64,000 nucleotides of DNA, from positions 124,001-188,000 of the forward strand of contig NZ_CP059221.1 in assembly GCF_014252375.1 (NCBI RefSeq). The letters are read 5' to 3'. Shown one piece after another: positions 39,340-43,212 of this stretch. Below the pieces are notes generated by a model that did not search any database, was not told the origin of the DNA, and saw nothing but the letters and a program-made list of their open reading frames with translations. This DNA is from Blattabacterium cuenoti. GTDB taxonomy: Bacteria > Bacteroidota > Bacteroidia > Flavobacteriales > Blattabacteriaceae. How positions within the stretch are numbered: the first letter of the stretch is position 1; the number at the start of each line of letters is the position of its first letter. Position numbers and translations under genes: made by a program.

Positions 39340-40770
39340 TTATTTTCTTATTTTTAATCCTAATTCTTTTCCTTTTTTTAACATAACAGAATATGCAGAA
39401 AAAAAATTATTTTTTATTTTTCCTTCTAAAATAGCATCTTTTATATAATTTTTTATAGTACCAATTTTTTTACATGAATTAATATTAAATGTTTTCATAA
39501 TATGAAATCCTGATATTGGAGATTTCCAATTCATGATACGATCTTTTTCTTCTAATTTTTTTATCTTTTTTAAAAGAGAAAAAATATTTTTTTTATATAA
39601 ATTCTTCTTTATACTATCATTAGTAGTAATATCTGATAAACATAAATTTATTAAATCTTCCAAATCATCTCCAATATCAAATATAAATCTTCTTATTGCA
39701 GAATCACTAACATTATTCCCTATTAAAGAAATAGGTCTAGAACTATATTTAACCATTTTTTTTACATATTTTAATATTTTACCCTTTGGTAACTTTAAAC
39801 GATTAAATATATTAGATATCATTTTACTTCCTATATATTCATGTGAATGAAAAGTCCAACCTATTTCTGGTATAAATCTTTTAGAACTAGTTTTTCCTAT
39901 ATCATGAAGTAATCCTGACCATCTTAACCATATAGAATTATATTTTTCTTTACTTAAATTATCAACAACTTGTAAAGTATGATAAAAATTATTTTTGTGT
40001 TTAAATCCATTTTTTTCTTCTACTTTTTCTAATAAAGTAACTTCAGGTAATAAAATAGATAATAATCCTGATTTATATAATAAAAGTAATCCAGTAGAAG
40101 GTTTGTTAGATAATAAAATTTTATTAAATTCTTCTATTATTCTTTCTTTTGATACAATATTTATCCTATCTTTATTTTTTATTATAGATTCAAACGAATT
40201 TTTATCAATATTAAATCTTAATTTAGTAGCAAACCTTATAGCTCTCATCATTCTAAGAGGATCATCAGAATAAGTAATATTTGAATTTAATGGTGTTCTT
40301 AATATTTTTTTACTTATATCCAATAATCCTTTAAATGGATCTATTAGTTTACCATAATTTTTACTATTAAGGCTAATCGCTAATGTATTTATTGTGAAAT
40401 CTCTTCTATTTTGATCATCTTGTAATGAACCCTTACTTATAATAGGATTTCTACTATTTACATTTTTATATGATTCTTTTCTAGAACCTACAAATTCTAT
40501 TTTGTAATTATTATATTCCAACATTGCTGTCCCATACCGTTTAAATATTATAATTTTAATTGGATTAATATTAGAAATTATTTTAGATACTTCCTTTGCT
40601 AGTAATATACCTTCTCCTATAGTTAGGATATCCAAGTCCTTGGACTCTACATTTCTCAATAAGAAATCTCTAACATATCCACCTATTACATAACTATCTT
40701 GATTAATTCTTCTAGAAGAAAAACTAATGATTTTAAATATATTTTTATAAATAGCACATGATAAATTCAT
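39340..40770 (-). CDS. cca: tRNA CCA nucleotidyltransferase with HD domain
   Basis: The N-terminal nucleotidyltransferase shows VIGGYVRDFLL and the metal-binding DLDIL (about 27-47), then QDDQNRRDFTINTLA and DPLRMMRAIRFA. A central HD domain has the metal-binding LLHDIGKT (about 290) and HSHEYIG. Class II enzymes of this layout either add CCA or poly(A). The tRNA-Leu in this window lacks an encoded CCA, which supports a CCA-adding role. It lies four bases after the frameshifted tsaC gene, whose transcript it probably shares. Length is 476. Confidence 0.9.
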   Translation of the reverse strand: MNLSCAIYKNIFKIISFSSRRINQDSYVIGGYVRDFLLRNVESKDLDILTIGEGILLAKEVSKIISNINPIKIIIFKRYGTAMLEYNNYKIEFVGSRKESYKNVNSRNPIISKGSLQDDQNRRDFTINTLAISLNSKNYGKLIDPFKGLLDISKKILRTPLNSNITYSDDPLRMMRAIRFATKLRFNIDKNSFESIIKNKDRINIVSKERIIEEFNKILLSNKPSTGLLLLYKSGLLSILLPEVTLLEKVEEKNGFKHKNNFYHTLQVVDNLSKEKYNSIWLRWSGLLHDIGKTSSKRFIPEIGWTFHSHEYIGSKMISNIFNRLKLPKGKILKYVKKMVKYSSRPISLIGNNVSDSAIRRFIFDIGDDLEDLINLCLSDITTNDSIKKNLYKKNIFSLLKKIKKLEEKDRIMNWKSPISGFHIMKTFNINSCKKIGTIKNYIKDAILEGKIKNNFFSAYSVMLKKGKELGLKIRK

Positions 40771-40774
40771 TTTT

Positions 40775-41340
40775 TTAAAAACGTAAAATTTTTATTTTAT
40801 TTGAAATAATTTTTATTATTATAGAATTATCATAAATAGATTTTTTTTTTCTACGAAAATTTACTATATAATCTACATTTTTTAAAATTTGTGGATTTAT
40901 TTCAGAAAATGATTTAGGAGTTTTAAATCCTGATATATTGGCAGAAGTTGAAATAATAGGTTTATCTAATTCTCTAATTAAAGAACTACAAAATTTATCA
41001 CTTGTTAAACGAATTGCTAAAGTTTTATAATTTAATATAAAATTGTTTTTTAATCTATATATTATTGTAATAGGTTTTTTTTTTTTTTTAAATTTTTTAA
41101 TATAATTTTTTTTGTAAAATCTGATATTTTACCTACTAACTTTTGTAAACGATCTATATTTTCTACTAAAAAAATCATAGGTTTAAAACTATTTCTTTTT
41201 TTTATTTTATATATTTTTTTTATAGCATTTATGTTAAAAGCATCACACCCTAATCCCCAAACAGTATCTGTAGGATATAATAAAATTTTTCCTTTTTTAA
41301 GAAAATTTACGCTTTTTTTTACTTCTATTTTAAAAGACAT
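40775..41340 (-). pseudogene. tsaC: Threonylcarbamoyl-AMP synthase (Sua5/TsaC family), frameshifted in a poly(A) tract
   Basis: The minus-strand frame from ATG 41340 encodes YPTDTVWGLGCDAF and KIKKRNSFKPMIFLV, then stops at 41062-41064 after 92 residues. The frame is lost at a 15-A run (plus-strand T at 41075-41089). In the next frame the rest of the protein is intact to a stop at 40775, including LAIRLTSDKF and IISTSANISG. One extra A would give a normal 188-residue enzyme. TsaC starts synthesis of the t6A37 tRNA modification, which is essential or nearly so in most bacteria. Both halves look conserved, so expression by slippage is plausible. Its start abuts the dapD stop. Confidence 0.85.
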
Positions 41341-42159
41341 TTATATTGATAAATTATGAGTTCTTAATGCATCATTTAATGATGTTTTTTTATTAGTACT
41401 TTCTTTTCTTTTTCCTATAATCAATGCACATGGAACATAATATATTCCAGCAGGAAATTTTTTTGGATAAGATCCAGGAATAACTACAGAATATTTAGGA
41501 ATAAATCCTTTTATTTCGGTTGAATTTTGATTTGTTACATCAAAAATTTTAGTGGAAGATGTTATTACAACATTTGATCCTAAAACAGCTCCTTTTTTTA
41601 TAATAATTCCTTCAACTAAAATACATCTAGAACCTATAAAAACATCATCTTCAATTATTACAGGGTAAGCTAGTAAAGGTTCTAATACACCTCCTATCCC
41701 TACTCCTCCACTTATATGGACTCGTTTACCAATTTGAGCACAACTTCCTATTGTAGCCCAAGTATCAATCATGGTTTCTTCTCCTATGTATGCCCCTATA
41801 TTAACGTAAGATGGCATAAGTACAACTCCAGGAGATATATATGAACCATAACGAGCTATAGCATGAGGAACTACACGTATTCCTTTTTCTTTAAACTTAT
41901 TTTTTATAGGTATTTTATCATAAAATTCCAATGGACCTAGTTCAATTTTATTCATTTTTTGAATAGAAAAATACATAATAATTGCTTTCTTTATCCATTC
42001 ATTTACAATCCATTTATTATATGATAATTCACATACTCTTATTAATCCCTTCTCAATATTTTCAATTACTTTTATAACTGAATTTTTAATATTTTTATCA
42101 ATTAACCATATATTTTTTTTATTCCAATAATTTTCTATTTTTAATTTTAAATTATTCAC
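41341..42159 (-). CDS. dapD: Tetrahydrodipicolinate N-succinyltransferase
   Basis: DapD succinylates tetrahydrodipicolinate in lysine and diaminopimelate synthesis. The left-handed beta-helix hexapeptides are obvious across the middle (VVLMPSYVNIGAYIGEETMI, GIGGVLEPLLAYPVIIEDDV). GIRVVPHAIARYGSYI precedes them. Length is 272, close to the E. coli protein. It is the first gene of a probable dapD-tsaC-cca-nrnA transcription unit on the minus strand, with gaps of 0, 4 and 9 bases. Confidence 0.96.
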   Translation of the reverse strand: MNNLKLKIENYWNKKNIWLIDKNIKNSVIKVIENIEKGLIRVCELSYNKWIVNEWIKKAIIMYFSIQKMNKIELGPLEFYDKIPIKNKFKEKGIRVVPHAIARYGSYISPGVVLMPSYVNIGAYIGEETMIDTWATIGSCAQIGKRVHISGGVGIGGVLEPLLAYPVIIEDDVFIGSRCILVEGIIIKKGAVLGSNVVITSSTKIFDVTNQNSTEIKGFIPKYSVVIPGSYPKKFPAGIYYVPCALIIGKRKESTNKKTSLNDALRTHNLSI

Positions 42160-42201: not shown

Positions 42202-42258
42202 ATAATAAAAAATATAAACTTAATTGTGTATGATTACTTTTTTATAAAAAATATATTT

Positions 42259-43212
42259 ATGAGTAAAATATTAGGTATAGATTATGGTAAAATAATGACT
42301 GGATTGTCTATAACAGACAAAAATAAAATATTTGCATTTGGATTAAAATCAATTTTAACTAAAGATTTAATGTTTTTTTTAAAATCTATTATTTATAATG
42401 AAAAAATAGAAAAATTGGTAATTGGACTTCCTAAAAAACTTAATAATAAAATTGAATTATTATTAGAAAAAAAAATTAAGAAATTTATTAAAGAATTTAA
42501 AAAATTATATCCTTCAATATCTATATCTAGAATAGATGAAAGACTAACATCAAAAATATCTATTCAATATATGATATTAATGAAATTAAAATCAAAGAAA
42601 AAAAAAAAAAACAGAATAAAAAAAGGTAGAGTGACAACAGCCATGTTAAATAGTATTTTATGGGATAGAAATATATCCAAAGAAACTAAATTACATATAG
42701 TATTTTATGGAAATCCTATTCTAAGAAAAAAATGTTTAGATATTAATTTTTCTAATTATAAAAAAAAATATATTATTAGATTAATAGAAAATATGTTCGA
42801 AACAATAAATAAAGTAAAAGGAATAGGTTTAGCTGCACCTCAAATAGGGAAAAATATAAAATTATTTATAGTAGATACTCCTTTATTATTAAACAAAAAT
42901 AATGAAGATAATTATAGAGAAATTTTTATTAATGCTAAATTATTAAAAATCTTTGGTAAAGAATATAAATTTAATGAAGGATGTTTAAGTTTTCCAGGAA
43001 TTTATGGTTATGTAAAAAGAAAATCTAATATAATTATTGAATACCATAACCAATATGGAGAGAAAAAAATTAAATATTTTACAGGAATAAAAGCTAGAAT
43101 TATACTACATGAATATGACCATATAGAAGGAAAATTATTTATAGATTATTTTTCTTTAAAAAAAAGAATATTAATAAAAAAATTATTTAGTAAAAATATT
43201 ATTAAAAGTTAA
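42259..43212 (+). CDS. Fused RuvX (YqgF) / peptide deformylase
   Basis: One frame holds two enzymes. Residues 1 to about 140 are the YqgF/RuvX nuclease fold used in 16S rRNA maturation (ILGIDYGKIMTGLSI, IGLPK, IDERLTS). Residues about 145 to 317 are peptide deformylase, which removes formyl groups from new proteins. All three metal-site motifs are there: GIGLAAPQIG (188-197), EGCLS (240-244) and HEYDH (284-288). No stop, and no ATG, GTG or TTG near the domain boundary, separates them. In other flavobacteria, from memory, the two are adjacent separate genes. I chose ATG 42259; a GTG at 42226 would add eleven residues. Confidence 0.88.
   Translation: MSKILGIDYGKIMTGLSITDKNKIFAFGLKSILTKDLMFFLKSIIYNEKIEKLVIGLPKKLNNKIELLLEKKIKKFIKEFKKLYPSISISRIDERLTSKISIQYMILMKLKSKKKKKNRIKKGRVTTAMLNSILWDRNISKETKLHIVFYGNPILRKKCLDINFSNYKKKYIIRLIENMFETINKVKGIGLAAPQIGKNIKLFIVDTPLLLNKNNEDNYREIFINAKLLKIFGKEYKFNEGCLSFPGIYGYVKRKSNIIIEYHNQYGEKKIKYFTGIKARIILHEYDHIEGKLFIDYFSLKKRILIKKLFSKNIIKS

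Follow-up and report, generated by a model that had tools for sequence, protein, structure and literature searches.

The tsaC gene of this Blattabacterium genome (handle G000; chromosome 570,862 bp, whole genome 574,182 bases) is frameshifted at a run of 15 A. When intact it codes for L-threonylcarbamoyladenylate synthase, the enzyme of the first step toward t6A, a tRNA modification that is nearly universal. Blattabacterium is a flavobacterium that lives as an obligate endosymbiont in cockroaches and their relatives. We tentatively lean, at a little short of an even chance, to the reading that the frameshift is real and that TsaC is still partly made through slippage by RNA polymerase or the ribosome. 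The competing readings are weighed below against the behavior of other long A runs, the pattern of decay and the state of the t6A pathway in related bacteria.

The lesion in tsaC

The window, that is, the whole stretch of 64,000 nucleotides analyzed, corresponds to bases 124001-188000 of contig 1 and has a GC content of 18-26%. At 41075-41089 its plus strand carries exactly 15 T, which form an A15 tract on the coding (minus) strand of tsaC. The 0-frame ORF starts at 41340, runs for 92 codons ending in ...ILKNLKKKKNLLQ*, and closes with a stop codon (41064-41062) that starts 10 nt past the tract. The other 99 codons (PITIIY...STSANISG...ILRF; 40775-41074 including the stop at 40777-40775) lie open in a different frame. 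The features of the locus are:

41341..42159, minus strand: dapD-like gene directly upstream of tsaC, intact (named from sequence, no family-library run)
41062..41340, minus strand: N-terminal part of tsaC, 92-aa 0-frame ORF with KxR (PF01300 profile 2-69); past the tract the residues are out of frame up to the TAA stop (41062-41064)
41075..41089, minus strand: A15 tract where the frame is lost, encoding a lysine-rich loop whose length varies in relatives (from sequence and relatives)
41074..41080, minus strand: A AAA AAC heptamer in 0-frame phase at the 3' end of the tract, where a -1 ribosomal shift would lead into the frame of the C-terminal half (read from sequence)
40775..41074, minus strand: C-terminal part of tsaC, 99 codons plus stop in the shifted frame, with STSAN (SxN) (PF01300 profile 63-176)
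39340..40770, minus strand: CCA-adding-enzyme-like gene (476 aa), starting 4 nt past the tsaC stop, intact (named from sequence, no family-library run)

PF01300 matched the N-terminal half with 68.7 bits (profile positions 2-69) and the C-terminal half with 61.7 bits (63-176 of 178), both above the cut-off. With TIGR00057 the halves taken separately scored 77.1 and 56.2 bits, each below the cut-off of 123.2. A check of the reading frames of both halves revealed no lesion other than the A15 tract; the damage is thus one frameshift lying within a coding-strand A tract, longer than the roughly 9 A that mark the slippage-corrected poly(A) genes of insect symbionts. An earlier note had named the gene tsaC, placed the break in a 15-A tract, described both halves as conserved and stated that one added A would restore a 188-residue enzyme. 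Each of these points held up: the intact orthologue from the relative G009 passes the TIGR00057 cut-off with 130.5 bits, one extra A does join the halves into 188 aa, and 13 A would be in frame as well as 16, with 15 out of frame. The note had also proposed a search for a second tsaC, and a profile search of the whole G000 genome found none, with PF01300 matching only the two halves, making this a single-copy gene.

The KxR/SxN tetrad, the single-domain form and a Thr/Ser signature serve as criteria for TsaC (PMC10321239). The gene has the single-domain form with the Thr/Ser signature and no SUA5 domain; KxR (KIKKRN; KKR) lies in the N-terminal half, and SxN (STSAN) and the TsaC-type threonine in the C-terminal half. 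With these motifs divided between the halves, neither fragment should be active alone. The two halves, both of which are open, could in principle be made as separate proteins that then assemble, an idea we consider very improbable: KxR and SxN belong to one active site of one small domain, and the C-terminal frame contains no ATG, GTG or TTG from the tract to its last few codons.

Among 49 Blattabacterium genomes, tsaC is in one frame in 47, the exceptions being G000 and G003. The nearest relative found to G000 is G009, whose DapD differs by 4.4%, and its intact tsaC has 9 A at the site of the A15 tract; the frameshift is not common to it. None of the intact genes examined has more than 10 A in a row in this loop. 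The loop lies directly before P(I/V)T and is lysine-rich and variable in length among relatives, so that one lysine more or fewer is probably harmless.

Long A runs in G000 and its relatives

A 15-A run is difficult to count, and the tract may be a miscount (PCR stutter or homopolymer undercall) or a consensus across symbiont genomes of differing tract length, the true or majority tract being in frame and tsaC working normally. We regard this as unlikely overall, although it carries real weight. In its favor, published Illumina genomes of Blattabacterium give genes such as gltX, dnaN and metG as pseudogenes (PMC6039017). We surveyed 68 runs of at least 11 A in G000, a set that excludes about 15 reverse-strand runs of this length beyond base 371,513. 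Of these, 61 fell within ORFs of at least 140 aa, and the others in tsaC, in a small gene, at gene ends, or in stretches that are unassigned or intergenic; tsaC was the sole identified gene out of frame. The ORFs spanning four 14-A runs (50113, 76689, 176387 and 308811) and one 16-A run (249194) were open across the run, as were nearly all those at runs of 12-13 A. These in-frame runs argue against a general miscount in the assembly; a miscount at the one A15 tract is quite possible, though not the rule.

Three further candidates for A-run frameshifts, one at the 3' end of a trpA-like gene (202414), one at an rpmB-like gene (108506) and one where a polA-exonuclease-like ORF ends (293382), were discarded when they proved to be in frame or at gene ends. 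The last of these (L053, G000:C1:293382) is a polA-like ORF of about 350 aa that comprises only the 5'-3' exonuclease-like part and terminates at a run of 14 A.

A fifth 14-A run, in ruvX-def, could not be used for the in-frame tally. There ruvX runs into def (peptide deformylase) in a single open frame (window 42226-43212, plus strand; junction 42598-42704) in which, after the A14, about 93 nt replace the start of def and the RuvX ending that relatives have (ISATIILQSYL...). No match of appreciable length to these 93 nt was found in the genome itself or in related ones, and they may be an insertion, a host-derived stretch or a misassembly. Since this junction reads as one long ORF, the ORF-spanning survey was insufficient alone, and a gene-by-gene comparison of 173 G009 proteins with 184 kb of G000 was added. 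Four breaks were detected: tsaC at its A15, and ilvD, ilvB and a cystathionine gamma-synthase-like (metB-like) gene (L228:1724, L228:4403 and L227:12372), all three with small indels outside homopolymers. The lack of any other homopolymer break in these 184 kb speaks against an artefact and, together with the intact 9-A gene of G009, indicates that the tsaC break is not due to chance.

Other unusual runs were noted on the way. At the rpsF (S6)/rpsR (S18) junction of G000 (G000:C1:280584-280683, L052), A79 and A20 on the coding strand read as a long poly-lysine, in the position of a tandem repeat of 9 bases (SKE units) in G009; the G000 runs may be a real expansion or an assembly artefact. In G009 itself, folK (at A14, L230:16745) and thiamine diphosphokinase (at A10, L231:2943) appear split.

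The second exception, G003, has its tsaC split in the same loop at an 11-A run, with the shift in the same direction as in G000. In that assembly nadE, a 427-aa frame, nadD, prmC and a ComEB-like deaminase (L144, L154, L172, L173, L183) are also split at A11-12, and all these splits need correction in the same direction as its tsaC; of the 62 runs of 11 A or more surveyed in G003, most are in frame. Either long runs come out a base short in this assembly, or such frameshifts are widely tolerated by the lineage. With at least 4 other genes carrying breaks of the same sign, we dropped G003 as an independent confirmation of the tsaC split. The pattern also counts in favor of a miscount in G000, as at least 5 genes of G003, several of them normally essential (nadE, nadD, prmC, tsaC), are all one base short, which is what undercalling predicts. 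A dnaX-like gene of G003 (L146, G003:C1:28003) is also split at an A11 and needs the opposite shift to the other split genes, possibly reflecting the usual dnaX slippage.

Decay, gene loss and the t6A pathway

A genuine and recent loss would make tsaC a newly arisen pseudogene, one more in a genome where gene loss continues, with t6A lost or supplied in another way. We hold this to be unlikely, though only slightly less probable than a miscount or mixture. The freshly broken ilvD, ilvB and cystathionine gamma-synthase-like gene, which are amino-acid biosynthesis pseudogenes of recent origin, give it support, as does the state of the t6A pathway in the family, described below. Conversely, tsaC is intact in nearly all of the genus, tsaD and tsaB are still intact in G000, and the sole lesion is of the kind that slippage can correct, no second one having accumulated.

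Signs of decay were sought in the protein. G000 TsaC keeps all 48 residues that are invariant in the 47 intact orthologues (19/19 in the N-terminal and 29/29 in the C-terminal half) and all 72 near-invariant ones. Lineage-specific changes in G000 versus G009 amount to 2 versus 6 in the N-terminal half and 6 versus 7 in the C-terminal half. The mean distance of the C-terminal half is 0.365 for G000 and 0.398 for G009 and is not raised, and its C/N ratio, 1.20, is inside the range of the genus. For the pair G000 and G009, dN/dS (NG86) is 0.67 in the C-terminal half, above the 0.17 of the N-terminal one; as the intact genes of G009 and G016 also give 0.53 versus 0.15, the contrast seems to characterize the clade.

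The part of tsaC downstream of the tract evolves, then, no faster than in intact relatives, a result that the ilvD/ilvB control makes non-discriminating. These two genes are 82-94% identical to G009 over their full length and show no further break, though their indels are beyond repair by slippage. We therefore dropped conservation as proof of TsaC function, the broken ilvD, ilvB and metB-like gene being equally undecayed; in light of this control, the lack of decay in tsaC tells us no more than that its break is either recent or corrected.

The earlier note had also proposed a check of tsaB, tsaD and tsaE, and its outcome was mixed: tsaB and tsaD are intact in G000, whereas in none of the 49 Blattabacterium genomes, which have TsaC, TsaD and TsaB, does TsaE reach the family cut-off. 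In seven relatives of the same order TsaE was found at E < 1e-33. Wider searches of the family (G061-G079) revealed 18 small-genome members with no PF01300 match, 7 of them at least 90% complete, and most of the 18 keep TsaD. Genus g14 has TsaD and TsaE and no TsaC; several genera with genomes of 200-300 kb have TsaD without TsaC or TsaE; and g17 has none of the three. Thus t6A synthesis is reduced in differing ways in this family, and the 18 members without PF01300, most with TsaD, mean that loss of tsaC is not unprecedented. The claim of the note that real loss of tsaC would be remarkable is for these reasons not supported, and the same facts, with the absence of TsaE across Blattabacterium, count in favor of a recent loss in G000.

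Slippage at the tract and comparison with known systems

Bacterial RNA polymerase slips on A tracts from about 9 A (PMC6260861, PMC1088944), and ribosomes slide on A11 (PMC4363877). Under the reading we prefer, partial production of TsaC through slippage, the DNA would truly carry an out-of-frame A15 in the lysine-rich, length-tolerant loop of the only tsaC. RNA polymerase would add or drop A in this slippery tract, giving messages with 13 or 16 A and from them a viable enzyme. On the AAA codons ribosomes may likewise slip or slide, and viable TsaC would also result from a -1 shift. The cost of the A15 may be modest, since in-frame DNA of 15-16 A would itself give mixed products. This reading infers a frameshift genuinely present in the population, slippage at tsaC and a sufficient yield of TsaC.

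By analogy with other systems, such rescue is plausible. It is favored by two open and conserved halves in a single-copy gene, by intact tsaB and tsaD, by the lack of acceleration relative to G009, and by a lesion confined to 15 A, well above the slippage threshold of about 9 A. It is weakened by the absence of the frameshift in G009, by the quite possible one-base miscount and by the control genes, which suggest that conservation may only mean recency. A slippery heptamer, A AAA AAC, is present in 0-frame phase at 41080-41074 (minus strand); no stimulatory RNA structure was found downstream of it (folding z-scores 0.11 and -0.17), which also weighs against rescue.

A self-correcting loop can be imagined in which a shortage of TsaC would leave tRNA-Lys (AAA) without t6A, provoke more slipping on the AAA run of tsaC and thereby raise full-length TsaC. 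We give it hardly any credence. A core tRNA modification would then regulate its own first enzyme via a frameshift tract, a highly improbable arrangement with no direct support here, and the same-sign breaks in unrelated genes of G003 speak against the specificity of such a loop.

If real, the break would leave G000 with a copy that either depends on slippage or is dying, of a gene thought necessary almost everywhere, within a family that has taken t6A synthesis apart in various ways. It would provide a direct test of how far an endosymbiont tolerates t6A loss, and of the role of the retained TsaD where TsaC is gone. It is a good test case, not proof that t6A has been lost or made dependent on errors.

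Erosion of t6A synthesis has been described in other reduced genomes, with loss of TsaB/TsaE in Mollicutes (PMC4014445) and absence of YeaZ and YjeE in Sulcia (PMC3695523). The likeness to Blattabacterium, already without TsaE, lies in the stepwise dismantling of the pathway in host-restricted bacteria. The difference is that in Mollicutes these papers describe TsaC and TsaD as resistant to loss, whereas in G000 TsaC itself is broken, by a potentially correctable lesion.

With programmed -1 frameshifting on A-rich heptamers (dnaX-type) the G000 gene shares the in-phase A AAA AAC that closes the tract; a -1 shift on it would bring the halves together. Unlike programmed sites, it is without a stimulatory structure, is not conserved across species and has no known benefit from the truncated product.

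The closest counterparts are the poly(A) frameshifts of Buchnera and Blochmannia (Tamas 2008, Wernegreen 2010, as cited in PMC3017870 and PMC5009743). According to the latter source, 12-50% of the transcripts of such genes in these aphid and ant endosymbionts are corrected. In Blochmannia vafer eight genes carry such frameshifts, among them dnaG and pth as information-transfer candidates (PMC3017870). The G000 tsaC resembles these cases in its setting, an AT-rich obligate insect symbiont, and in its form, a single lesion in a long A tract of a gene that is otherwise intact and not accelerated. It differs from them in a frameshift that is absent from the nearest relative, in a longer tract (15 A) and in the gene affected. 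Such events have precedents in Buchnera and Blochmannia; the gene, tsaC, is new among them.
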